Assembly: GCA_004802725.1 (NCBI GenBank)
Contig: SGPM01000445.1
Location: 1-18,435 of the forward strand
Direction of reading: 5' to 3'
Source: Antrodiella citrinella
Taxonomy: Eukaryota; Basidiomycota; Agaricomycetes; Polyporales; Steccherinaceae
Length of the DNA stretch: 18,435 bases
In this document: positions 2,305 through 18,435 of the stretch, in pieces
How the letters are laid out: every line of letters begins with the position of its first letter
Numbering within the stretch: the first letter of the stretch is position 1
Position numbers and translations under genes: made by a program
Notes under the pieces: generated by a model
The model's database searches: none
What the model saw: the letters and a program-made list of their open reading frames with translations, nothing else
Told to the model about the DNA's origin: nothing

Positions 2305-3363
2305 TCAGACAAACACAAGACAATCTTGGACAGAAGGTAATGCACACGCAAAATATGCTTTCACGTCGTCCCGCCAGGGCTGTACCAATGGCTCCTGCGA
2401 CTCAAACGGCTCAAAAAAGTCAAACCTCAGAGAACGACACTCAAACTCCAGAGGAAGCTGCACAAGCCCTATATCATTCACTTTCCTCACAAGCACGACC
2501 CTCTCCAACCCCTCCAAGTCCCTCAGAACCGCGTCCCACTGATCCCAATGGACCATCCCGAACTGACACTCGTCCATCCGCGTGTACGCGCTCAAGTCGA
2601 ACATCAAACAGAGTGTAACCTCTGTTGGGGCAGAAGCGGAAGCCAGGAGACGCAGGGTGTACTGCCACTGCACGAAGAAGAAGTTGCTCGTAGGCCACGT
2701 TGCGTGCTTCAGCAGCTCGTGGTCTTTTGTCACAAGCAGCGCGAATGTGAGGCTCTTCAATGCTGGACAGTGTATGGACAGGTTGATGGTGCGTGCGCAC
2801 TTGGGGTGCATTCGTCCGAACCCGTCGCTGTGGACTCGACGCCAATGCTGAGCTGAGGATGCGAAAGAGCACCCAAGTGAGAGAGCGATGACAATGAGGA
2901 AAGGAAGAGACGCACATCGTTCATCCGCGTGAAAGTCCACCCTTGTCCTCGTAAAATCCATCCTCAAGGTCTCCAATCCGCGTCCTTTCGCCTCCAGATA
3001 ATTGCATGTCACGTCCACGTCGCGCTCGTCCGTGAGCGTACACGTCATCCCGAGGCTCTTGATCACCTCCTTCTGAGACGCAGTAAGGAGATCTACTTTA
3101 GAAAGTGGCAAGGGCGAGCGGGGTAGCGCGAACATCTGGTTGTCGTCAAATTCGAACTGGATGACACCTACACCTGACCCGATTTCCACAGTATGAGCTG
3201 CAGGCAAGAACGTGTCCGAGTCTGAACCAGCGGGAGATCTAGTGAAGTCTTTGACAAAGGTTTTGCTCGCGGAGAACTTGACGACAGGTGACAAATGGTC
3301 CAGGAGAGCGGGGTGGCGAGGAAGTGGCTGATAGCATAGAGCGGGTGGCAAGGACAGTGGTGG
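2305..3363 (-). pseudogene. F-box/LRR-like protein, 5' end cut off by the inversion
   Basis: This is the C-terminal part of an uncharacterised leucine-rich protein. It resembles the C-terminal regions of the large agaricomycete F-box-like families: alternating hydrophobic strands such as ALKSLTFALL and LRLLASASAPTEVTLCL, then WDQWDAVLRDLEGLERVVLV. A 63-nt intron (2853-2915) with a gtgcgt donor and a cctcag acceptor is likely; being a multiple of three it leaves the frame open. The frame continues upstream to 3546, but everything before 3363 is antisense to the transposase exon at 3364-3558, so those ~61 residues are spurious. I see no F-box motif; it would lie in the lost 5' part. Probably non-functional. 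The family call is by general pattern only. Confidence 0.5.
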
Positions 3364-4883
3364 CTCAAGCTTCTTGATTCTATAGAAAAGCCTGGATCGA
3401 GAGCATCCACACGAATAGATGGACTGGACGGATATCAGACTGTCGTCACGGAGTCCATGTCCCTTCAACATGATTCCGCTATTGCAAACGTACAGGATAA
3501 TGATGGTATGTCTATGGAAACGATGGCAATACCATGCGTAGTGCACGCAATTTCAAAGGTGCGTTCACTTGCTTTTACGCAACTCGTGAGTCGTGTCCGA
3601 ATACTCACAGTGCCTTGTCCACACTAGTTGCGCAAGATCATCCTCGCAGTCCAATCTAGTCCCCAACGACGGCAAAGATGGCTTGCTACCGTCAATACAT
3701 CTCTTCAGCTTTCGGGTCGATTGAAAGAAGAAGCGGCAAAGATGCTTATACTGGACGTCAAGACACGCTGGTCATCAACACACCAGATGCTCAGTAAGGC
3801 GCTCGACCATCCATTTAACCCACAACTAATCAATGTCTTCATTCTTTTCAGGACGTGCTCTAGAGTATCGACAAGAAATTAATACTTACGTCGCAAACGA
3901 AACGGAATTGGCTCACGACGAATTAAGCAGCCTAGATTGGCAAGCAGTTGATGTTGTCGCTCGCTGGCTTCATTTATTCCGCGAAGCAACGACAGAAATG
4001 TCGTCAACTCATCACCCTACTCTGTCAACGTGCCAGGCCATCATCCGTGGACTTCAAGATAGCCTGAAGGATCACCTCCGCGGATTACCCTCGACTACAC
4101 CACCCGAATTGCTCAACGGTCTTCATCAGGCATACAGGAAGCTCAGTGACTACCACCACATCATTAACGAGTCCCCTTTCTACTTGTGGGCATGCTGTGA
4201 GTCTCGTCATGTTTATATACAGCTTCTCTTCTTGCTCACAATTGCCCGTGCAGTGTTGGATCCTCGGATTGGACAGAGCGGCCTAATCAGCGATGCTGAT
4301 CTAGATGGGGACACCAATTACAAAGAACAAATTCTCGCCGCGGTCAAGTCTCTCCAAACGTATTATCTTTCGAATTATGTATCTGCACAGTCGGATCCTG
4401 CTACCACCCTATCCACTACCAACAATCACACCGATGAGCACATCAATCCTATCACACGCTCTCCTCGCAAGCACGACTTCATGGCTCGCTACAATAGACA
4501 TCGCCATCATCCTCTGCCCGCCAATGAGCTAACGAATTATTTTCGTGCGACCTCCGAAGGCCAGGACCTTCAAACAGGAGATGATCTTCTCGGATGGTGG
4601 AGATGGCAGAGTCAACGCTATCCTCACGTAGCTCGTATGGCTCGAGACATTCTGTCAATACCAGGTGAGTACTATTCAGTTGTTCAATCTATTCTTCTCT
4701 TTCTGAGGTTTCTCGTATGCACTAGGGTGCGCAGTTGCTGTAGAACGAGTGTTTTCCTCTGGACGCGACACCATTTCTTTGCGACGTGCAAGCTTGAAGC
4801 CAGCAACTATCCGCAAACTGATGCTCCTTCGGCACCACCTGATACTCTCTCGAAATCAGTCTCGAGCTCGGTCGGCATCATGA
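3364..4883 (+). pseudogene. hAT transposase, C-terminal 424 residues
   Basis: The exons are 3364-3558, 3628-3793, 3852-4196, 4254-4664 and 4726-4883, all with GT-AG introns of 57-69 nt and matching phases. The product runs from LKLLDSIEKP through an acidic linker, the fungal hAT segment LRKIILAVQSSPQRR, then DVKTRWSSTHQMLRRALEYR, WACLLDPRI, and the C-terminal dimerisation block (LGWWRWQSQRYP, DILSIPGCAVAVERVFSSGR, LMLLRHHL). There is no stop or frameshift before the natural TGA at 4881. It lacks the BED finger, the first catalytic aspartates and the CxxH motif, which are all in the half at 13225-15266. It is inactive alone because the inversion removed its start. Confidence 0.85.
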
Positions 4884-5127
4884 TCATTTTTTCGTCAACA
4901 ATATCTTGCATACTACAGTACAATAGATCTATTGAATAATGTACATGTATACTGGTGGTCTATAGGTCGCTCGCACCGCCGTACGAAACGGCCGTAATCC
5001 GTCCAGTTCATCGAACGGACGTTCCGTCAACGGTGCTGACATAATAACGGCCGTTGCCAGCGTCCCGTTGAACGGAACGGCCCGTTAGAAAACGGCCGTC
5101 TGCCGATTCGTAACGTCGGGAGCCCTA
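3364..5127 (+). mobile_element. hAT transposon, C-terminal half with 3' end
   Basis: This is the 3' part of a fungal hAT element. It contains the transposase C-terminal exons (to 4883), a 244-bp tail and the 3' terminal repeat. The tail holds many acggccgt-type subterminal motifs (around 4984-5100), as is usual for hAT ends. The element stops at gggagcccta (5118-5127), the complement of the tagggctccc start of the half at 13225-15980, and is followed by the 8-bp duplication ccaatatt. The left edge at 3364 is not a transposon end: it is an internal break, and the preceding base belongs to the F-box-like gene. Confidence 0.85.
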
Positions 5128-5135
5128 CCAATATT
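5118..5135 (+). repeat. hAT 3' terminal inverted repeat plus target duplication
   Basis: 5118-5127 is gggagcccta, the outer 10 bp of the element. 5128-5135 is ccaatatt, the 8-bp target-site duplication. Its exact reverse complement, aatattgg, follows the matching terminal repeat at 15981-15988. Eight bases is the standard hAT duplication length. Confidence 0.85.
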
Positions 5136-5389
5136 TTACTTCCTTCGGAGTCGGCAGAATCCGTCCGCAGTGGTGGAAAGCTTCAGGTACGAGTCTCAAC
5201 CAAAGACATAGATGTGCTAACGATGAATGTGTTCCGGACAGCTATTATTTCTTTCATGAACAACACAATAAGTCACACTTACTCCGCGGTTTACACTTTT
5301 CAAGCGTGGATTCGTACAATTTGCGTCGCTTTCTATAGACACGAGTCGATTAACAGGTAGTGCAATACAAGTCGCGTCTCGTATAAGAA

Positions 5390-8049
5390 TCAATGCTGGC
5401 CTGAGCGATTCATGAAAGACTGAAGCATCTCTTGGTTGATGCCCCCTCCACTTGGGGTCCTCTGATGATGCCCCATCCCGGCTCCCATGACCATGGGCGC
5501 ACCTCCGCCCATCCCATCCGTTCCTGGCATCGCAACTCCACCGCCTGGTACGTTACCGTTGCCGCCATTGCCGCCATTCGGGACCTGCTGACCCTGAGCA
5601 GCCATCTGCTTTTGCTGAAGCATCTGCTGTTGCTGCAGCGCTAGCGCCTGCAACCACTGCCTCCGTTTCTCTATAGGCAGCGTGCCCAATTGCGCCGCCT
5701 GCTGTGGAGGCAGGCGGGTAAGTATGTATGCGATAGCCACGGGGACCGACTCCAGCTCGATGTCGCAAATGTGTGTTGGCGGTAGTTCTGGGATCCCATC
5801 TGCAAAGAAGCCCCCTGCCAATCCGCCCTTCGCCGGAAAGATCATGAACCGATGTTCCTTCCCTTCACCTGGCCATCCGGTCAGAGCATACTATGGGCAA
5901 TATCAGCGGTTTAGTGAACCAAAGACCCATGGTTGGCTGAACATAACTTACTATCTTCTTCTCTAGAAGGAGTCGTATCAGTTGACGGAAATGATCCTCG
6001 TTCTTCGCTTTATCGTCGCCCGCGACATCGCGAGGTTGAAGTAGGAAGGGAATCGCGTTCGTTCGCTTCAGCCAATCTTGTAAGAGGAACCAAGGAATTG
6101 CCCTCTCCTTCGACGGTGTCAGATTCAGAGCGACTGGCCATGTATGAGGTTGGCTGTCAGATTCAGGTGTATTAGCTCTGCAACGAACCACTTCCACGTT
6201 TCGAGAGACGCACCCAAGATCATGGGTAGACGCACTCGCAAGTGTCACCTTTGTCTGCAACTCCGTTCGCGCATGGGTTGTAGGCTCCAGGCCCCGCCAA
6301 GTGAGCGCGCCTTCCCACCGCTGATCGCTTCTAGGCAATGCACTGGTAGTCGCTGGAGGTGGAGCTGAAGCTTGACTTGAACCCGATGCAACGGGCGGTT
6401 GCGACTGTGGGACAACAGCCGCACCCATGCGTGGCGTCCGTCGTTGCTGCTCCATCAGCTTCTGAAGCTGCGCGTCGTGTGCTTTATTCAACGTCTGAGA
6501 AGTCCCTAGTGAAGGGTTTTGAGGATCTATCGAGGGACCTGCCGTGAGTGGGGCAGCATGCTGCATAACGGCCGGTTCCGAGGAGGGATTGAGTGCAGGA
6601 GCAAGCGCAGTAGGCGGCATGACGATAGGATTAGGAGCAGCTGGGTTCGAAGAGTTCTGTGTTGCGGTTGGTTGTTGAGCGTGCTGGTCCTGAATTTTGG
6701 CACGATAGTGGTCCAGTAACATCTTCATTCTTTTGTAAGTCAGGAAGATTGTTTGAATCTGACTTCGAACCTCTTCGGCCTCTGTGGTACGACCTGCGTT
6801 CTGGTGAGCTGCCAAATCCGCCATCTTCTGTTTGAGCTGTTTCTCTGTATCGTTCAGATGCTCTAATGCTTTCTGATACGTAGCGGGCGTGACCGTGGGT
6901 GTCGGTTGCGGATTGGGTCGGGTCTGCACAGCTACATTCGCGGGCGGGATGATAGGAGAGGGGGTGGGTTGGACCTGCGGTGGGGGGGATGATTGCGACA
7001 CGAGGTTGGGTTTAGGTGACTGGGTCGCTGAGGCGACACGTGGCCGCTTGCTCTCTTGGTTTGAATCCGCAGAAGATGAAGGGGAGTCATGTGGTCGCTT
7101 GACACCCGCAACTGTGAAGCAACTTGAGGACCGAGAACATGTCGGCAATATACGCAAAACGTACTTTTGGGAGGGGGATATCCAGAAAGTCGAACGGAGT
7201 GGTGCGATCGCACAGGGAACCAAGGTGTTTGTACAGAAGTTCCTGCAGTCTATGGAAAACACAGATAAGGATGCATGATTCGCGATGAAATAGTTTGCGA
7301 TGTACCATAGAATGAAAACTGGATAATTTCCCTATGGGCTGCAACAAGACATGGCTGTACTTGATATCACGCTGCGGAGAATCAGCTAGTGCGACAGTTG
7401 ACGATGAGACCTCTTTGAACTTGCCTTCTGTACTTCTTGGGGAAGCGTCTCCCAAGTGACGGCGTCTAGACGAGGCGAAACATTCCATAGTGGTCGCTCA
7501 GCAGCGTCCGGAGGCGAAGCGGCCACATGAATGATATGACACACTGACTTCTGTGGATTTGGATGTCAATTCAGGTAACGAGTTTGAGGGACGAGACTCG
7601 CCTCGGTTGTAGTCTTGAAGATGTCAATGAGCTTCAAGTGAAGGTATGAGCGGACGTCAAAGGGTCGTATGGGCCCAACGTACCTCGAGAGCAGCAATCA
7701 GACCTTCTAGTACCGCCATGCCTCTAGTGCCACCTGAGCCTGTCTGTCCGACGCCCAGTTTTGCCGGGTCGTCCTTGAGGTCCTTTACAATGATTTGGGG
7801 GGGAGCGAATCCGAGCTTGGACAAGAGCGGGGTCGGGTGGGTCGCCGAGGAGGCATAACACACGAACGCAAGTTTCAACTAAGGTGAACTTGAGCTTTCG
7901 AACGTCGTGCGCGAGAGAGTACGTACGGGCCGCCCTGTATCATAGAGGCGTTGGAGGAGGGGAACAATGTAGTCGGCCATCACGCGGGGCCACTCGGTGT
8001 GAAGAGCGAGGGACGAGTCCACGACGCATGCAACGCCGACTTCAGCCAT
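5390..8049 (-). CDS. MED25: Mediator complex subunit 25 homologue (vWA + PTOV-like)
   Basis: Nuclear transcription co-activator subunit that links activators to RNA polymerase II through Mediator. I assemble nine exons: 8049-7927, 7878-7684, 7631-7598, 7543-7425, 7371-7306, 7249-7165, 7111-6214, 6153-5952 and 5890-5390, giving 740 aa. Residues 1 to ~200 form the von Willebrand A-like domain (VACVVDSSLAL, GGTRGMAVLEGLIAALE, CHIIHVAASPPDAAERPLWN, WETLPQEVQK). Next come a KR-rich probable nuclear signal (KRPHDSP...KRPRV, ~212-233), a coiled coil (~285-350), a Pro/Gln-rich linker, a PTOV/ACID-like domain from WEGALTW (~473) to ~640, and a Q/G-rich tail. MAEVGVA is taken as the start because it begins the first vWA strand. 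Intron 4 (7424-7372) is GC-AG. Introns 3 and 7 were placed by frame and conservation. The vWA placement is firmer than the PTOV one. Confidence 0.8.
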
Positions 8050-8316
8050 GGTCGACGCCCACGCCCAGATGTGTGGCGAGGTGAGGTGGATGCCCGCTGT
8101 GCGCGACGATGAGCAGCAGCAGTTGAACGTTGAGCAGCAAATAGACACCGGAGATCTCAGATCGCGTCCAGTGGCGCACAGAGTAATAAGTCCGACTACT
8201 CGTCATTTCATAATGTAAGTACGTCGCCTACAATAGTCCGTTAAGCTGTCTAAGTGTGGCGAACGACACGATGGTCTGTGCAGAGTCCGATACAGAGTAC
8301 AATGTAGAAAAACATG

Positions 8317-9017
8317 TCAGAGGAAAACGAGGTAGGCACCGCCCACAAAACAGGACACGAGGCCAGACACGATTGCTAGCCAGCTCGTACTCAGATGGAA
8401 GCGGAGGGAGGCGTCGCTGGCTGGTGCGGTATTGGTACCAACTAAGCTGAGCCATTGGCTGAATGCTAGGATGGTACCCGAAGCAGTTGCTGATAAGGGG
8501 AGCGATTGGACATAGGTCGGAGTGAATGTATCCTGCACGGCGATGGTTTCGCCTGTATGAAAGTGAATGAGATACGACGGATATTAAATTGGCAGACACT
8601 GACCGGCAGCATTCGTGGTCGTGTACTGGTACACGGTTGGAGGAGCAGGACCGGTAGTGACCGGCGGTTGGCCTACGGGGCCCTGCTGGCCATTTGCGAT
8701 GGTGAGGGCGGGCGTGGTTGTGGGCGTAGTTGTGGGCGTAGTTGTGGGCGTAGTAGTAGGAAGAGTTGACCTGAGGAGACATGAGAAGCGCAGCAGGTGA
8801 GCAGGAATGGTACGTACACTATCTCAGTAGTAGGAAGCCCCGCCGCATTGAGGGTCAGGACCTCGACAATCGACTGCCCGTTCCTAACAAAGGAAATCGT
8901 GAGCAAGCGTCGCCGTGTCAGGACGAGGAGGACGAACACATCGGTGGCCGTCAATGTTTGTGCAACGGTGGAGACAGCGAGGAAGAGACAGCAGAAGAGG
9001 AGAATGAGCGATTGCAT
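8317..9017 (-). CDS. Secreted, probably GPI-anchored Thr/Pro-rich protein
   Basis: The four exons 9017-8938, 8883-8818, 8770-8604 and 8552-8317 give a 182-aa product. The first ~19 residues (MQSLILLFCCLFLAVSTVA) are a clear signal peptide, probably cleaved before QTLTATD. The mature part has VEVLTLNAAGLPTT, a PTTT tandem tract, a Pro/Gln-rich stretch and a second TTTNAAGE segment. It ends in a hydrophobic tail (STSWLAIVSGLVSCFVGG...LVFL) with small residues before it, as expected for a GPI anchor. It is probably a cell-wall or plasma-membrane surface protein; I know no specific function. It lies 267 bp upstream of MED25 on the same strand and is divergent from OLA1. Introns are 47-54 nt with GT-AG ends. 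Confidence 0.7.
8711..8757 (-). repeat. 12-bp tandem repeat encoding PTTT units
   Basis: On the coding strand a unit like actacgcccaca repeats about three to four times within exon 3 of the secreted-protein gene, giving TTTPTTTPTTTPTTTP. The units are almost identical, which suggests recent slippage and probable length variation between strains. Confidence 0.8.
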
Positions 9018-9323
9018 GTCGTGTCGGTCGTGTCGGTGGGTGTGCGCGACGACTTGAACGGCGGCGGGGACGGCGAGGACGCAGCTCCTCCTCCCCACGT
9101 GGCTACGAGGTCACGTGAGAGTGTAAAGGAGGATATGAGCGCCTGATGAGAGCTGATAGCGCGACTGTCACTGCCAAAAATGCTCAGAGTCGCTTTCTTC
9201 TCTTCGCCCTCCTCATCGTCGTCCTCGTCGTCGTCGCTGCGTCGCTCGTCGTGTACACCCGTTCCGTCGTTGTTTGTGCCGTTCTCCTCTGCATCCGTCG
9301 CACTCGCCTCCATCAAGAAAAGG
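9018..9323. promoter_or_regulatory. Bidirectional promoter with two CACGTG boxes
   Basis: These 306 bp separate the start codons of the secreted-protein gene (-) and OLA1 (+), so they must hold both promoters. Two palindromic CACGTG E-boxes lie at 9096-9101 and 9112-9117, only 16 bp apart start to start. CACGTG is the classical fungal bHLH (Cbf1-type) site. A TCG/TCC-rich tract (about 9205-9255) lies in the OLA1 leader. No clear TATA box is visible. A frame open from ATG 9180 runs into OLA1, but its serine-run sequence is unlike any OLA1 N terminus. Confidence 0.5.
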
Positions 9324-11430
9324 ATGCCCCCCAAGAAAGTCGTCCAAGAGAAGAAGGTCCTTCTCGGACGTCCAGGTAACAACCTCAAGATTGGAATCGT
9401 AGGTTCGTCTATCTCGCGTCCCCTTCACTCTGTTAATCCAATCTTTCCGTCTTGCAGGTGTCCCCAATGTTGGCAAATCCTCCTTCTTCAACGTCCTCTC
9501 CAAAACCGGTACAGTTGTCTTCTTGCCGTCCCCTCGCTGTCTTTTTCTGACCTTCTTTCGTTCTCTCAGATTTGGGCATAGCACGAAACTATCCATATGC
9601 TACCATCAATCCCGAAGTTTGTCTTTGTCCTTCAACTTCGCTCTTTTACTCACCCTCTTTTCAACAGGAAGCTCGGATACCCGTTCCTGACGAACGCTTC
9701 GATTGGCTCTGTGCAACGTATAAACCCAGTTCCAGAGTCCCCGCAGCCCTCACCACCATCGATATTGCCGGTTTGACTGCTGTAGGCTTGTTTGGTCATT
9801 GCGTTCCCCTTCATGATTCTCATGCTCTTCTTCAGGGCGCGTCCACCGGTGCTGGTCTCGGCAACGCTTTCCTTTCTCATGTACGCGCGGTAGATGGTAT
9901 CTTCCAGGTCGTTCGTGCTTTCGACGACGCAGAGGTCATTCACGTCGAAGGAGAGGTCAACCCTTTGCGCGACATGGAAATCATACAAACCGAGCTCCGT
10001 CTGAAGGATATCGAATGGGTGGAGAAGCATCTCGAGAACGTCAAGAAGACTTCACGTGCCCTCGGTAGCAACAGTCTTGCCGACAGAGCAAAGAAAGAGG
10101 AGATTGTAAGTCTTATTCATCTTTCTCTTCTGCTTCGTAAGCTCATCCCCTCCAGGCTACAATCGAGAAAGTTCTCAAGGTTCTCACCGTCGACAACTTG
10201 GACGTTCGTAAGGCCGATTGGGGTAACAAAGAGGCAAGTACCTCTCTCAATGCGCGTGTATCTTCCCTCTTCTGTGCGATTTCGTATGATGATAAAGAGC
10301 GATACGCTCAATTTATAACTCAGCTCGTTGAGGTGGGAGTAACGCCCCGGATACCTATGAGATTACTTTATTTCTGACTTTCTTCCCTGGTTTCCGTCAT
10401 CCGTGCCATATTCGTACAATTGCTGACCAATGTTGTTCTTAACAGGTAATTCCGTCACTAGTCAAGACCATTCGCCCCACTCCCTTTTCTGTGTCATTTT
10501 CTGATGACAAAGAGCCCAAGGCTCGATTAACCCAGCTCGTTGAGGCGGGAGTAACGCCCCATTTTCCTCTGAGATTATGTTTTTATCTGATCTACCTCCA
10601 AAATTCCAGCCATCTCCGGTTTTTGTCGCTGTGCGCTGTGCGATGGCTGATATGTCTATTCTGCAGATCGAGGTCGTCAACAGTCTACAGCTTCTCACCG
10701 CGAAGCCCGTCACTTATCTCATCAACCTCAGTGAAAAGGACTATGTGCGCAAGAAGAACAAATGGCGAATTTTGTTTCCTACTCATTGTTCCTTGCCATC
10801 GCTAATGCATCCATGTGTAGGCTGGCGAAGATCAAGGCCTGGATTGACGAAAACAACCCCGGTGACCCCCTCATCCCTTTCTCCGTCGCCCTTGAGGAAC
10901 GGCTCGTAGGCATGTCAGAAGAAGAGCAGATCGAGGAGCAGAAGAGGGTCGGCGCGCAGAGTGCATTGCCTAAAATCACCCACGCTGGCTACGCGTGTCT
11001 TGATGCGAGTTCCACCGTTTTTACTGTTACTCAATACGACGCTTACCGCGTCCTCTATAGCTCATTCGCTATTTCACTTGCGGACCTGGCGAAGTGAGGG
11101 CTTGGACTATCCGAAAAGGAACGAAGGCGCCGCAGGCGGCAGGTGTCATCCAGTATGTATCCGTGTCTCGAATTGTCTCTTCTTCCCTCATCGTTATGCT
11201 TTCTTGTCAGTTCCGATTTCGAGAACAAGTTCGTGTGTGGCGAAATCATGAGCTACGAGGACCTCCGAGAACACGGAAGCGAAACAGCAGTCAAGGCGGC
11301 CGGCAAGCTAAGGCAGCAAGGCAAACCTTACGAAAGTACGTAATTCCGCGTTGCCGTAGTCAGGACTTCGACTAATTACCAATGAACAGTGGTCGACGGA
11401 GACATCGCGTATTGGAAATCCGGCGCATGA
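9324..11430 (+). CDS. OLA1: Obg-like ATPase 1 (YchF family)
   Basis: Cytosolic, ribosome- and proteasome-linked P-loop ATPase of the YchF subfamily. The eleven exons are 9324-9402, 9458-9508, 9570-9616, 9668-9781, 9836-10105, 10156-10233, 10667-10764, 10821-11004, 11061-11152, 11211-11335 and 11390-11430, giving 392 aa (human OLA1 is 396). Features: Walker A GVPNVGKS (27-34); [22 protein letters not shown]; the OLA1-specific NLSE (233-236) replacing NKxD, which marks ATP preference; and a C-terminal TGS domain ([16 protein letters not shown], then [25 protein letters not shown]). The start MPPKK matches the family. Introns 6, 7 and 8 begin with GC. Intron 6 is 433 nt against 51-61 for the rest and contains a duplicated foreign exon. 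All exon phases agree. Confidence 0.93.
10260..10590 (+). repeat. Tandem duplicated armadillo-like exon unit inside OLA1 intron 6
   Basis: Two copies of a ~90-bp unit lie about 212-215 bp apart, matching at 10288-10350 and 10503-10560 (gatgayaaagag..., cagctcgttgagg). The 3-nt length difference keeps the frame. Translated, copy 1 reads [17 protein letters not shown] and copy 2 [16 protein letters not shown]. Between them a GT-AG intron (10339-10445) would splice copy 1 to [10 protein letters not shown], giving [14 protein letters not shown], which looks like an armadillo/HEAT repeat helix pair. It is best read as an exon-intron unit of an ARM-type gene inserted and duplicated within the OLA1 intron. 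The ARM call is by motif only. Confidence 0.6.
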
Positions 11431-11884
11431 GCTCTCAGGACATGTTTGAGTAGCTAAGCTATTCACGAGCAGTCGTATTCTGATGAATCAAAGAATGTAC
11501 GATGGACGTTTCTCACAACATGCACATATAGATTTGTGTTCTGTCTCCTTCGTGATGCGAATGTAGGATCGCCTTGTCACCATCCGTTTTGGACGCGCTG
11601 GCTGACTAGGGGATGATTTCGTTTGACTTAGGCGTGGTGAATTTTGACCATTTTGTGTGTGATACTATATTGGACCGTAGGTTCGGTCGGACCTGTCACT
11701 CGGTCAGTCCAGATTTCTCTTCACTCACTCCTTTGGTGGAGTCCAACGTTGTACAGGAGACATATTATAGTATTATGCACATTCTCTGGGTATCTGATTG
11801 TCAAAATAACATGGTGGTACAGACGAGCAAAAAGGGTAGTTTGTCACTGTTGTGAACGTGCGAAGTATTGCTCTCACCTAAGAT
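11431..11884. other. Intergenic stretch downstream of OLA1
   Basis: It contains the OLA1 3' untranslated region and nothing else I can name. The two short open frames in 11613-11889 overlap each other and have no recognisable motif. Confidence 0.4.
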
Positions 11885-12419
11885 TGTAACTGCTAGTGTA
11901 AAGTAGTTTAGGATGAGATCGAATACAACTTCAAGTTCTCGACTTCAGAGTTCGTTATCTAATCCGAGATCTCGGTAACGTCTTAGTTAGAGAGAGAGAA
12001 AGAGAAGTGATCCACGTAATCAAGCTGTTGAACACAAGAGGACAATAAAAGTATCTTACTTCTTAGAGTCCTTCGAATACGTGTATCATAGTATCTTACT
12101 TACGGTACTTGGAACAGTGAGTCAATCTTATCACACAGAGTGGTAAGAGGAAAGATATTGATTGGAAGAGGGATAATCCTTGGTGGACGAAGAGCGAGGT
12201 CGTTATATACATGTATGAGACAGTCTTCGAGATCCTTCTAGTAAGTACATTGTTATGCAGACGAGTCATTGGGAGTCAGGGAGTCGTATGGCCGAAGCCC
12301 GAGAGATGGTAACAGAAAGGGAGTATGGCCGCATGGCTGAATGAGTGAGAACTTGAGGCATGAGGCGTGTTGTGTTTGAGGAAGAGTCCTAATCATGCAA
12401 AGGTAAATATGGATACACA
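11885..12419 (-). mobile_element. Probable LTR (3' LTR of a minus-strand retrotransposon)
   Basis: On the minus strand the segment starts TGTGTATCC, preceded within 6 bp by a run of seven G (ggggggg acattt) that would serve as the polypurine tract. It ends GCAGTTACA, giving TGT...ACA termini. A TATA-like catgtatataac lies near 12205-12220 and the length is 535 bp. A coding tail lies immediately upstream of the purine tract, as for the end of a pol or gag-pol frame. The 5' LTR is not in the window, so neither boundaries nor a target duplication can be confirmed. The direct repeat agtatcttactt (12049 and 12091) lies inside it. Confidence 0.45.
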
Positions 12420-12461
12420 AAATGTCCCCCCCTGATTAGACTTGTACCTCCAAATGTAGTA

Positions 12462-12827
12462 TCAAAGATATTCGCTGGTCTCGGTGGTGGGAAGGTCGAG
12501 GTGGTCAATAACTCTAAGACCAATGACGTGAGGGTTAGGAACATCCCCATCTATGAGGATGTCGACCCCTTCCTCATCCGACTCCTCGGATACAACAATG
12601 GTCAAGTTGTTTGATGACCCATCACTATCAGTGTCAGTGTCGGCGATAACAGCACTACCGTCATCAATGATAACAGCACTACCGTCATCAATGATAATGA
12701 CCCCATTGTCAATGGTCGCGGCGGCGACACCATCATTGTCATCTGCTGCAACATCCTCGTTATCGGATAGGTACCCCTGGGCTGTGAAGTACTCGGAGGC
12801 TTCAGAATCAGATCCAACTAGAGTTTC
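12462..12827 (-). pseudogene. Acidic coding tail of a probable retroelement, fragment
   Basis: This is an open frame of about 121 codons without its own start, bounded upstream by a stop at 12828. The peptide is strongly acidic (DSEASEYFTAQGYLSDNEDV, two copies of IIDDGSAVI, TDTDSDGSS, SEESDEEGVDILIDGD), then HVIGLRVIDHLDLP and a TGA at 12462-12464. Reading continues past that TGA as YYIWRYKSNQGGTFCVS into the G-run, so the TGA may be a disrupting mutation (for example of TGG). I do not recognise a specific family; the retroelement assignment rests on the adjoining purine tract and LTR-like segment. Confidence 0.4.
12648..12692 (-). repeat. 21-bp in-frame tandem repeat
   Basis: Two near-identical 21-bp units, each containing acagcactaccgtcatcaat on the plus strand, encode the repeated IIDDGSAV peptide in the acidic fragment at 12462-12827. 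Confidence 0.75.
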
Positions 12828-12969
12828 CTATCATTATTGCGTGGATAAGCGCCGACCTCGGTGCCCTCGGAGGTGTCGCGCGCTTGGCGCGTTGCCCCAC
12901 CCGATTAGGCCATTTTTCGCCCAATATGGTGCGGCTTCTTCACCCTTTGCTCGAAATGGCAACCGCCCC

Positions 12970-13215
12970 CCGCGCCGATCATCCCGGCTCACCTTTGCCA
13001 CCCTCCATGCCACCCAGGCATGCCACCCATCGGCCACCTCCCCGTCCTCTCGTCCGGCCACCTACATGCCACCCATCACCCGCCTCGTCGCTCTCTCGTC
13101 GGTGACATCGGCCACCTGTCCCGCCACTCTCACCACTGTCCTTGCCACCCACCCCGCCACCCTCACCGCCACTTGCCACCCTCGCCCACCCTCGTCGGCG
13201 ATACCGGCCACCTGC
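12970..13215. repeat. GCCACC-rich degenerate tract at the inversion breakpoint
   Basis: The plus strand is dominated by irregular repeats of GCCACC, CCACCC, tcggccacct and related words. A longer unit recurs imperfectly (tcgtcggtgacatcggccac near 13097 and tcgtcggcgataccggccac near 13192). All frames are open by composition, so the long frame here is not evidence for a gene. The tract ends at the hAT break (13225) and contains the 20-bp segment 13131-13150 that is duplicated in inverse orientation at 3343-3362. Confidence 0.7.
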
Positions 13216-13224
13216 TAGCTACCC

Positions 13225-15266
13225 GGCAGCAAGATGAATGATGTGTGGTGTGCATCGTATCCGTGAGTCGGTGGCTGAAAACTCGGGGAATCCGTGCTCG
13301 ATCATATGGTCTTCGAGGGATTCCATCATGGTATTGTTATTTGTTGCATTGTCGCTTGTGATGGCCAGGAGCTGTAGAGAGATTTCAGCCACGATGAACA
13401 TTCAATAGAGAAGCCGAATACATACACGTGAATGTAAGTCATAATATGTGAGGGTGCGTGCAACTCCAGAGGCGATGTTTCTGCCGGAATGGTCGCCCAA
13501 GAGCTCTTGAAAGTCTATCAGAAGTTCTTCTGCGAACAAGATCTTAGTATTTTTATGGACACTGCAAGTTTGCATGCTTACCAAGCTGCCAGTCGTTCGA
13601 TACATAATGCATCACAATAGCTAAGAACACGTAGCCATTTGACGAGGTCCATAGATCAAGGGAAAGGCTGACTTTTGAGTCAAGGTTCTGTATATGTCAC
13701 ACGAGCAGTGCTCAGCGCCGCTATCAGCCAAAACGCAAGAAAACGTACCTCAATCATCTGACGAATACTGCCCGTCTTCTCGTCCGCAAGGTTCATAATT
13801 CGGTCAGACATTGTCGTACTTGCTGGGATATGCGGCCGTCTTGGTGCTCGCTGAACATACTCCAACAGCGCAATATATTCAGGTACCTCTGTTGCCGTGA
13901 AGGGCTGATTCGTAACAGCCATCCATTTTGCAAGGAGGTCCTCAAACTTTTCTTGGTCCCACGGCTCCTGCTGGAGTTCCGAGTCAGGCTCAGTCTGACA
14001 GGAACGCTGCACGCATGATGATACCAATCAAACGTACCGATTCGTTGCGGTCTTGATCAACTTCAGTTGCAAGATCGTCAATGTCACGTGTGAGGTTGTA
14101 CGGCAACACTTGAACTGGTTTCCGACCAGCTGCAACAAGTAGCTCGTCTGCCGTTGGAGGTAGGCTCTTCTGTGTAATCCGATTCTTCAACAGCTGCCAT
14201 AGCTTGTGCATTTCCGGCGACACTTTCTTAAGATTGTTGATCAAAGCTGCAAGATGAAGATCGCGTCAGTGAAGTCATTCAACTCACAAAATGAAGCAGC
14301 AAGCTGAAGAGAAATCTCACTGGTCTGCGAACGCTTCATAGCCTTAGTGACAGTGATAATGCGCTTGTCCCCATGATAGCATCGATAATGATTATCACCT
14401 GCGTTACCAGGTCGTCCTAAGGCGTCGTTTAGGACCTCTTCGTAGAAGTAATAGATTGCGGGGCGACGTGTATGACTCTGCGTGAACACATTTAATCAAA
14501 ATCTTAATTCCTGAGCACACTGTAGTCGATACATACCTTAGTACTTTCGCCTGCTTCTAGATTTGCAGATGCAGCGGGTGGTGCGACACTCGGATCGCGC
14601 ACAGGTTGTGTGCTAGTCGAATCAGCGAGCGAGTGCGAAATTCGAGAACGTTTGGTGCGCTTAGTCTTCTTCTCCTTGTGGCGAGCGCTTCGGCGACGTT
14701 TTCCTCTAGATGGAGCCTGAGGAACAGATTGACGAGGCCAGAGGTCGACTACCTGCCTCTTGGTCAGCAGATACATCAGGTTTATATACGAGTAGATAAA
14801 ATACCTCCGCATTTGAAACATTTTCAGGTCCGGAGTTGTCAACGTCTGTTTCCGACTCAGACGACCTGTCGGAGTCCTCGCTGTAGTCATCATCATCACC
14901 GTCGTCCAGTAGCTGACCAGACAAGCTATTAATCGTATACCGAGTGCCGGGAAGCTGAGGTAGCTCGTCACGAGAGTTGCTTGCTTGCTGGTACGTCGGT
15001 GACATGTGCTGCGGAGGATGAAGCCCAGAGCCGGAAACAAAACTGTTGTTTGGTGGCGTATACAGCGGCCTGACCAAGTCAAATGCGGTTGCAGGCCAGG
15101 TCTGAGCAGGTGCGAGACACATCCCCTGATGAGCAGCAGAGTGGGCGGGTGCTGCACCAGTGGTCTGTGAACCTCCGCTGGCCTGAGCCGACCGTGACGG
15201 AGAGGCAAAGTAATCCACACGGGACTCCATGAACTTGAGAGAAGGGAGTGGTGGTAGCGTGCTCAT
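13225..15266 (-). pseudogene. hAT transposase, N-terminal 549 residues
   Basis: The exons are 15266-14805, 14752-14537, 14477-14321, 14246-14038, 13994-13749, 13687-13582, 13529-13426 and 13371-13225, with GT-AG introns of 43-74 nt and consistent phases. The order is: start MSTLPPLPSLKF; disordered Ser/Pro and acidic region; a basic stretch (GKRRRSARHKEKKTKRTKRS); a BED-finger-like segment (YYFYEEVLNDALGRPG, HYRCYHGDKRIITVTKAMKR); then the RNase H-fold core with SLDLWTSSNG (first catalytic Asp), ITSDNATNN (second Asp) and RIRCTPHIIHLA (CxxH). There are no internal stops. The frame breaks at HLAA; GGG TAG follows from the foreign tract. MESRVDYF (15230) is an alternative start. Confidence 0.85.
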
Positions 15267-15980
15267 TGAATACACGTACGGAATATATATGCATCCCAAC
15301 GTGGGCCGTCGTTGCTATTGGAAGCAACATCCGAGTTGCAAATACGGAGACGTGCACCGGAGAGCTCCAGGTATGTTCTAGTGCTACGGGTGATCAGTAA
15401 GGGGTGTAGTCAAAGCAATGAAACACAACGACTCACAATTTTTTGCGGTTGCGCCACAGTCCGATGTTATCAGCGTGCCAGTAGAAGTATTTTACCGGAT
15501 CGTCATAAGGCTCGCGTGAGTTTCTATGGTGATGGAGAAAGCTTAAACGAATACAATCTGCAAGATACAGTCAGATTTGGAGGGGGTGGAGTGTTTCACC
15601 ATGCTCACTCTGTATGTATCCGTCCAGGTCTTGAGCAAATCCTGTAAAATCAAGATAGGTGGCTGGTTTTGGTCCGCAGCAGCATTCTGGAACTCTGATA
15701 TGCGAAGGCTTTGTTTGCTGAGCTTGTAGATCACGCGCGAAAGGAGACTGGGGGAAATTTGCGTGTATTGTGGAATCATGAAGAGCAAGTCGAGCCTACA
15801 ATGAATGGATCATACACAGCGGACGTTTGTACGGCTACGGACCGTCAGATTACGGACGTTCTTGCAAGCGCCCCGTACCGTCACGTTCTGTTTGATGGCA
15901 AAACGGAGACGTGCCGGCGAGAGCCGGCTGTTCGAACGGCCGTACCGTTGCCACGTTTGACGGAACGGTTGGGAGCCCTA
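13225..15980 (-). mobile_element. hAT transposon, N-terminal half with 5' end
   Basis: This is the 5' part of a fungal hAT element on the minus strand. It starts at the terminal repeat tagggctcccaacc (complement of 15967-15980), followed by subterminal acggccgt/accgtac-type motifs (about 15830-15960), a ~714-bp leader, and transposase exons from 15266 down to 13225. The element then stops abruptly inside the transposase and is followed by the GCCACC tract. Its missing remainder corresponds exactly to 3364-5127; joined, they would make an element of 4,520 bp. Confidence 0.85.
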
Positions 15981-15988
15981 AATATTGG
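15971..15988 (-). repeat. hAT 5' terminal inverted repeat plus target duplication
   Basis: 15971-15980 (gggagcccta on plus, tagggctccc on minus) is the outer terminal repeat. 15981-15988, aatattgg, is the target-site duplication, the exact reverse complement of 5128-5135. Along the element both flanks read ccaatatt. Confidence 0.85.
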
Positions 15989-16739: not shown

Positions 16740-18435
16740 ATTTACACCGTGGCTGGCTCCGGAATTGACGAGCCAATGTAAAGACGGTACATATTCCTAT
16801 CGTGCTCCTTTTACCACCAGCGACACCATCCGCCCAATTGATACCATAAGAATACCTGACCTGACCCTCACGACCAGCCCAGTCAAACTCCAGCAGCATG
16901 CCGCCATTCGAATCGGCGAGATCGTCGTCCAGACCATGTCGACGGACAACCAGGACATTCGGGTGTCGTATATCGCCATGTGTTAGAATTCCTGAGGACA
17001 GTAGGAGTAAGATGAATGTATTGCGTTTGGCTGAGCTCTTGCAAACACATGAGAGAGGGGGAAATACACGAAAAGAGGGCTTTATCTACGAAAACGGGAT
17101 CAATGATAAATTTGTTGTTGATCTACGAGAACTGCCTCATCATAGATTTCAACACCATGCACAAAGCCTGCCGCGTGTAGGACATCCATGGCCTTCTTGA
17201 CACCCAGCCAAACATTTCGTGCGATAGTGTTGGCGTCCCGAATGTGTTGAACGCAGTCTCCCCTCGCACGTACGCCATAACCGCAATCGATGGAGTTTCG
17301 GCGCTGAGGGAGGGTTCTGTTCAGCGAGGAGCGCGTGTGCATCGTGTCCGTACCGCTCGTAGAACTTGACAACAACTTATTCGCCATCCAATGTGCCTAA
17401 AAACATCGCTTGCTGCTTGGAGGGTTTCTGGTCAAAGGCAAACCGTCTCTTGAACTGTAAACGATCTAGAGCTTGACAGTCCGAGTCCGAGGCGTCCGGG
17501 TAGAGGGTCGGTTTGGGCAACATTCTGCAGGGTAATAGCTTGAACGAGGACGGCATCAGGTTTGAGTTCATCTTCTTCACTTCCCCCATGGTATCGGCCA
17601 AAACGGTGACAGAAGATTCGCGCAGCCCTCGTGATCGCCTCAGACATATTGAAATTATTCAAGTGGCCGCCGAGGAACATAAGGTCCGTCAGAGATTGTA
17701 CGACGACGACTTCGAGGAAGATGGCGTATTGGAAGCTGATGTACGGGCCTGCGACAGCTACCAGCAGACACGGGAAACTCGATCCAAATTTGATGCCATT
17801 GTAGCGTGCTTGTCAACTACACTGGACAAGACTCGGTTGACATATCAGACACACCTGGTCCTGCGACACGTATCTTTCATATGTCCTTTGGACCTGGGTA
17901 ATGGGATCACGACCAGCCAACTCGTTCGCGTACTCGAAACACCCAACCAACGCCGCAGGTAGCGTTCCTGACACGATATCTAACAATCGGTCCAAGATTG
18001 GTTGCATAGTAGCTATCCTGGCGTCTTCGTCGGAATGCATCTGAACCGATACTTGGAAGAGCTCGTGGACGTTGCGTTTCGTATCCTCCGACGGGTCGAC
18101 ACTGGCGAGGTGTTCCAACCTGTGCGATGCTTCGGCAAACGGATGGTCGTATATAGCGATGGGAGGCCCGATGGCGCCGTTTCTACCGTTGCATGTTGGG
18201 CACGTTGCTTGTGCGCTCCTGAGTGCTGCCTGATTAGCGGCAATCGCTGACGGGTTAGGAAGGGCCATGATTGCTTTCTTGGTGGCGATTTGCACTAGAA
18301 AAGATGTCAGAGTATTGATTGCAACAGCTCATCTTTCAAGAGTTGAATCACCTCGGTCAACATCGTCCACCACCATAATGGGATCTGGAGTCCTTGCGTT
18401 GAAGAAAATGGAGGCACAATCATGATGCACGAGTA
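16740..18435 (-). pseudogene. Decayed fungal kinase-like gene, runs off the window
   Basis: A protein-kinase-like gene of a type common in agaricomycetes. Its 5' end lies beyond 18435: a frame is open to the edge and reads PDPIMVVDDVD, then a probable intron, then IATKKAIMALPNPSAIAANQ, CPTCNGRNGAIGPPIAIYDH and so on (18295 to about 17850). Middle exons are unclear. The kinase-like part has FDQKPSKQQAMFLGTLDGE, the ATP-lysine strand VVVKFYERYGHDAHALLAEQ, a helix KKAMDVLHAAG, the catalytic-loop analogue LTHGDIRHPNVLV (about 16985-16947) and the DFG analogue EFDWAGREGQVRY (about 16890-16852). A TAA at 17377-17379 interrupts the frame just before VVVKF, and the frame shifts near 17300. Disabled, unless intron placement hides the breaks. 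Confidence 0.6.

Follow-up and report, generated by a model that had tools for sequence, protein, structure and literature searches.

Two opposed halves of one hAT transposon mark the ends of a probable 9,861-bp inversion in Antrodiella citrinella

Transposons of the hAT superfamily, which includes Ac, hobo and Hermes, generate 8-bp target duplications and end in short terminal inverted repeats with the consensus start C/TA-G. Their transposases carry conserved D, D and E residues and a C-terminal dimerisation domain. DNA transposons are also associated with inversions: in the available text on Galileo in Drosophila, inversion breakpoints lie within the transposon (PMC2775673), and in that on maize Ac/Ds, inversions arise at hAT elements by alternative transposition (PMC8225341, PMC3470690). 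Here we describe an 18,435-bp stretch of the genome of the polypore Antrodiella citrinella, a rare wood-decay basidiomycete of the Steccherinaceae (Polyporales; GenBank assembly GCA_004802725.1, contig SGPM01000445.1), which is the whole contig and is called the window below. It holds the two halves of a single hAT transposon in opposite orientations, and we are highly confident that the element inserted whole and was then cut by one two-break inversion of 9,861 bp.

We joined the reverse complement of 13225-15980 to 3364-5127 computationally and obtained a 4,520-bp hAT element. It is bounded by 10-bp inverted repeats, TAGGGCTCCC and its inverse, which have the C/TA-G start of hAT elements. 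Once the inversion is undone CCAATATT flanks both outer ends in direct orientation, an 8-bp duplication of the hAT type, and in the window CCAATATT occurs once per strand, only at these two sites. The first-pass annotation had placed the two halves at these positions with the same 8-bp outer flanks, and had recovered a 4,520-bp element by undoing an inversion of 3364-13224; all of this was confirmed. The same start is found at the single surviving end of each of two close copies, on contigs C323 and C570, in the assembly that we searched (30.0 Mb in 602 contigs; the available text of PMC12878558 gives 33 Mb in 1,228 contigs for the published version).

The rejoined transposase frame is open over 12 exons and gives 976 residues and a stop, with one acceptor chosen among three that all keep the frame open. 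An open joined frame had been described before, and this stands; the earlier counts of about 973 residues and 13 exons are close to ours. The 3' half alone matches PF05699, the hAT dimerisation domain (E 1.6e-17; 63.5 bits, cut-off 21.4), and chains named Hermes transposase matched the transposase at E 6.7e-14 and 1.4e-13. Among 38 aligned relatives, described below, D90 is D in 35 rows and D156 in 37, and E577 is E in 21 rows with gaps in 15. By analogy with Hermes we take these three residues to be the catalytic D, D, E, and we count the triad as present. The ten best matches in a protein search are 43-48% identical, and the named ones come from mushrooms and polypores. An N-terminal BED zinc finger is common in hAT transposases, if not universal; no zinc-finger match was found in the first 552 residues, where only YL1 scored, below its cut-off, and where the true N terminus is uncertain.

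The seam between the halves was compared with relatives of the transposase. Residues 60-360 of the joined part retrieved 54 proteins, one of which was the window's own model and 53 of which were others. We aligned 38 of the 53 (the 15 left out were P0032, P0039-P0041, P0043, P0044 and P0046-P0054). In this alignment 36 of the 38 relatives have residues on either side of the seam and none has a residue between, and the seam sits inside a block that is conserved among the relatives. Since the alignment includes the joined query, we also aligned the halves separately to all 53 relatives. Both halves scored above 150 in 38 of them, and in 20 of these 38 the seam offset was exactly 0. When six relatives were used in tblastn, the first half aligned through its last base in all six; for the second half the alignment began at its first base and with the next residue in two, and at base 70 or 265 in the other four. 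The counts of 36 and none bear out an in-phase join with no residue evidently missing or repeated, as first proposed. To within a codon, nothing appears to have been lost from the transposon at the break.

The healing of the second breakpoint is new here and goes beyond the observations in the first-pass annotation. At both junctions a hAT half is joined to a piece of one CCACC-rich repeat; a search that skips simple repeats showed a single further copy of it, on contig C320. Beyond the point that matches 13216, C320 runs into the reverse complement of about 3342-3305, just outside junction 1. We scored this continuation against 5,258 74-base windows on both strands of the contig and found that the 13 best (scores 29-41) all overlap about 3342-3305; the next-best window scored 23 and the present continuation past junction 2 scored 14. 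With fewer than 3 mismatches, a 23-base pattern made from the window and C320 copies occurs nowhere else in the 30 Mb, and with 3 mismatches it occurs at 3 other places; a reversed control pattern occurs at 1. The match to contig C178 ends at 3306, where the CCACC repeat starts, and this point is the far edge of the repeat. A further dispersed repeat (11845-12829), 75-82% similar to pieces of C314 and C465, abuts the CCACC repeat, which puts the second breakpoint within an island of repeats. A single inversion of 3364-13224 thus repairs two unrelated features: both junctions heal under one reversal, although not to the base on the repeat side.

Insertion of a hAT element as two opposed halves 8 kb apart that share one target duplication would not be expected, and we therefore place the insertion before the inversion. 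The inverted ends, a target duplication in direct orientation and one open frame combine only once the inversion is undone. The earlier proposal of a single insertion followed by an inversion is supported by the two halves, by the seam being in frame, by there being one pair of 8-bp duplications and, independently, by the healing of the repeat. The 4,520-bp transposon would have inserted whole beside a pair of genes read as MED25 and OLA1, duplicating 8 bp of target. Two double-strand breaks would have followed, one in the transposase gene (element base 2756/2757) and one in the CCACC-rich repeat about 8 kb away. The breaks would then have been rejoined with the intervening 9,861-bp piece reversed, leaving the element in two opposed halves and the repeat in two pieces, probably by end joining without visible shared bases. 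The joins have 0 bases in common, and no 21-base word occurs in both of the 600-base neighbourhoods of the junctions. The lack of shared bases, together with a break inside the element, disfavours both recombination between repeats and aberrant hAT transposition, and end joining of two breaks fits best. A motif scan for a cause of breakage found no canonical G-quadruplex motif in the window.

Several points weigh against an insertion followed by an inversion. When the halves were aligned separately, 18 of the 38 relatives departed from 0 by between 3 and 52 residues; many of these have a second-half alignment that begins past a variable stretch. The alignment to C320 has gaps where the repeat is rejoined, with extra repeat bases in the window and a few others missing. 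A small gain or loss may thus have occurred there, and the break on the repeat side is placed less finely than to the base. The search for intact copies, proposed as a check in the first-pass annotation, turned up the C323 and C570 fragments and no intact close copy that would show the seam at the DNA level in the searched assembly. These two were the only close copies found, and both end short of the seam. C323 holds the 3' part (window 3853-5128, 95%), with an 8-bp insertion within a coding exon, and continues into another repeat and the contig end; C570 holds element bases 1 to 313. When the 233 residues around the seam were used in a protein search, this gave, besides the window, two weak matches that are too distant to settle the seam at the DNA level: C341 (26% over query 68-232) crosses the seam position, and C519 (42% over 56-113, with one stop) does not. 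Finally, according to the available text of PMC12878558 (section 2.3), the A. citrinella assembly was made from Ion Torrent reads of mean 222 bp with MIRA and then Geneious, with no mention of long reads in that text.

These short reads and the second contig-joining step raise the question of an assembly error, in which the genome carries an unbroken element and the middle piece was reversed by the MIRA and Geneious joining. The 20-base inverted match close to the junctions (Table 1) also speaks for it. Against it, this match has its right arm 74 bases inside the right junction, and, as noted above, no 21-base word is common to the neighbourhoods and no base to the joins. Two reciprocal false joins would be needed, and the window contains no N. 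We consider an assembly error very unlikely.

An inversion by aberrant transposition through the element ends, as maize Ac/Ds elements are described to produce, would place the breakpoints at the termini. Here both termini are intact beside the shared target duplication and the break lies at base 2756 of 4,520, and we give this explanation scarcely any weight. Recombination between inverted repeats at the two breakpoints could call on the same perfect 20-base inverted match, but its chance is close to nil, as this is the longest shared word nearby and lies off the right join, the joins are not in both arms, and in the restored order the 20-base units are direct within one repeat.

Insertion of a whole element followed by inversion leaves a split transposase gene that should yield no whole protein, with its function presumably lost. 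The coordinates of the two halves, the junctions and the neighbouring features are given in Table 1. At junction 2 the annotated A. citrinella protein EUX98_g8361 (12462-13669, minus strand) continues a hAT exon across the junction into an unrelated repeat frame (12462-12827). It covers 18% of the region used in the protein search at 100% identity, and looks like a gene-annotation artefact.

Table 1. Features of the hAT element, the inversion and the neighbouring genes (window positions)
Feature	Position	Strand	Remarks
5' half of hAT element, element bases 1-2756	13225..15980	-	left end and first ~552 transposase residues; 2,756 bp
3' half of hAT element, element bases 2757-4520	3364..5127	+	remaining transposase, C-terminal dimerisation domain, right end; 1,764 bp
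Left terminal inverted repeat TAGGGCTCCC	15971..15980	-	C570 copy has same end
Right terminal inverted repeat GGGAGCCCTA	5118..5127	+	C323 copy has same end
8-bp target duplication, outer copy 1, CCAATATT read on minus strand	15981..15988	-	
8-bp target duplication, outer copy 2, CCAATATT	5128..5135	+	
Probable inverted segment, 9,861 bp	3364..13224		
Junction 1, CCACC repeat joined to hAT 3' half	3363..3364		
Junction 2, CCACC repeat joined to hAT 5' half	13224..13225		
Larger CCACC-rich repeat piece at second ancestral breakpoint	12827..13224	+	12827-13216 matches C320 at 82%
Smaller piece of same CCACC-rich repeat, outside inversion	3305..3363	-	shares 23-base end with C320
20-base repeat unit identical to 13131-13150	3343..3362	-	inverted in window, direct after undoing inversion
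Piece 95.5% identical to C178	2243..3306	-	F-box-like by appearance only; no Pfam match
Mediator-subunit (MED25-like) gene, approximate limits	5390..8202	-	inside inversion, uncut by both breaks
OLA1 (Obg-like ATPase) gene	9324..11430	+	inside inversion, uncut; start and stop read by eye

The two breaks lie in mobile or repeated DNA, so that neither visibly cuts a host gene. The gene previously called MED25 has 4 protein matches, among them one from Steccherinum ochraceum (47% over 80%) and one from Cristinia sonorae that is named Mediator of RNA polymerase II. These matches support a Mediator subunit; the number 25 is the earlier reading and ours, as the matched name breaks off before the number. 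When solved structures were searched with one MED25 frame, the 11 weak matches were all to prostaglandin synthase, at E 0.58 or worse. The presence of OLA1 inside the inversion, also noted at first, is supported by 7 YchF/Obg-like sequences that match one stretch of its frame (E 2e-48 to 5e-20). A 57-bp direct repeat, 82% identical, lies in the middle of OLA1 (10316-10372 and 10528-10584). The surface-protein gene that had also been placed in the inversion was not confirmed, and its reading frame is what suggests it. Ten frames from the neighbouring genes and the joined flank were scanned against Pfam, and none scored above the cut-off. Removal of the element leaves a long open frame in the joined flank, but a restored gene at the insertion site found no support: this frame has no Pfam match, and none of the 7 candidates in a protein search matched at E up to 10.

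The flanks of the window contain other repeats. A 174-bp repeat (16981-17154) has at least 38 other matches in the genome at 79-98% identity, and contig C104 (27427-28087) matches both of its flanks at 80-82% without the repeat itself. At the other end of the window, inverted ends of about 170 bp that are 94-97% alike bound 114-2243 and enclose two dispersed repeats, one at about 518-1302 (at least 20 or so near-full-length matches, 81-94%) and one at 1360-1781 (at least 9 near-full-length matches, 96-98%). The C178 match ends at 2243, so that the C178 copy is without the 114-2243 block.

The split copy carries 0 disabling changes in 2,931 coding bases, which suggests roughly less than 0.9-1.6% neutral divergence since insertion, a rough bound that assumes an indel-to-substitution ratio of 0.02-0.1 and a transition bias of 2. 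By this rough measure the insertion looks young. Both events had been thought recent; this gives rough support for the insertion only. Between the window copy and C323, differences fall at 22/305 third, 8/304 first and 6/304 second codon positions and at 22/362 non-coding positions. This pattern suggests that the protein was under selection in the lineage before the copies decayed.

According to the available text of PMC12878558, species-wide nucleotide diversity in A. citrinella is 0.0049 and the sequenced isolate was derived from fruit-body pieces; public Illumina reads of the species are named there under BioProject PRJNA1222407. The reference strain is DSM 108506. With such diversity the inversion could be segregating in the population. 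We suggest, tentatively and with some doubt, that the inversion may be a young allele segregating in A. citrinella, with some nuclei keeping the unbroken order and a whole, possibly working element, perhaps even the partner nucleus of the sequenced isolate. We found no second match to the MED25-OLA1 block (5136-11660) in the 30.0-Mb assembly, as a second haplotype with the old order would give; this is weak evidence, since the searched assembly is smaller than the published one. Three further matches from this search fall in 11661-11840. If the allele does segregate, the locus would offer a natural on/off transposase pair for studying how a small inversion arises and spreads.

Small inversions usually keep no record of the original order, and here the transposon and its target duplication are a built-in witness. 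From a single contig, the transposon break is located with roughly codon precision and its counterpart to one repeat; the apparent artefact EUX98_g8361 is exposed as well. Among the titles seen in the literature on fungal hAT inversion breakpoints, split transposons and alternative transposition, none concerned this locus, and the word 'inversion' is absent from the main text of the A. citrinella population paper as available (PMC12878558).

The A. citrinella copy shares with other hAT elements the 8-bp duplication, the short inverted ends, the conserved D, D, E and the dimerisation domain, and differs in lying in two halves and possibly in its N terminus, no zinc finger having been found in the first 552 residues. 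As in the Galileo inversions a breakpoint lies within a DNA transposon; there, however, two copies recombine in the available account (PMC2775673), whereas here a single copy was cut and the other break has no second one beside it. As in the Ac/Ds inversions a hAT element is involved, but those use the element termini as far as the available text describes them (PMC8225341, PMC3470690), and here the termini and the target duplication are untouched. The split element is a real and clean case of a known kind of event, and it leaves the general picture of hAT elements and of inversions unchanged.

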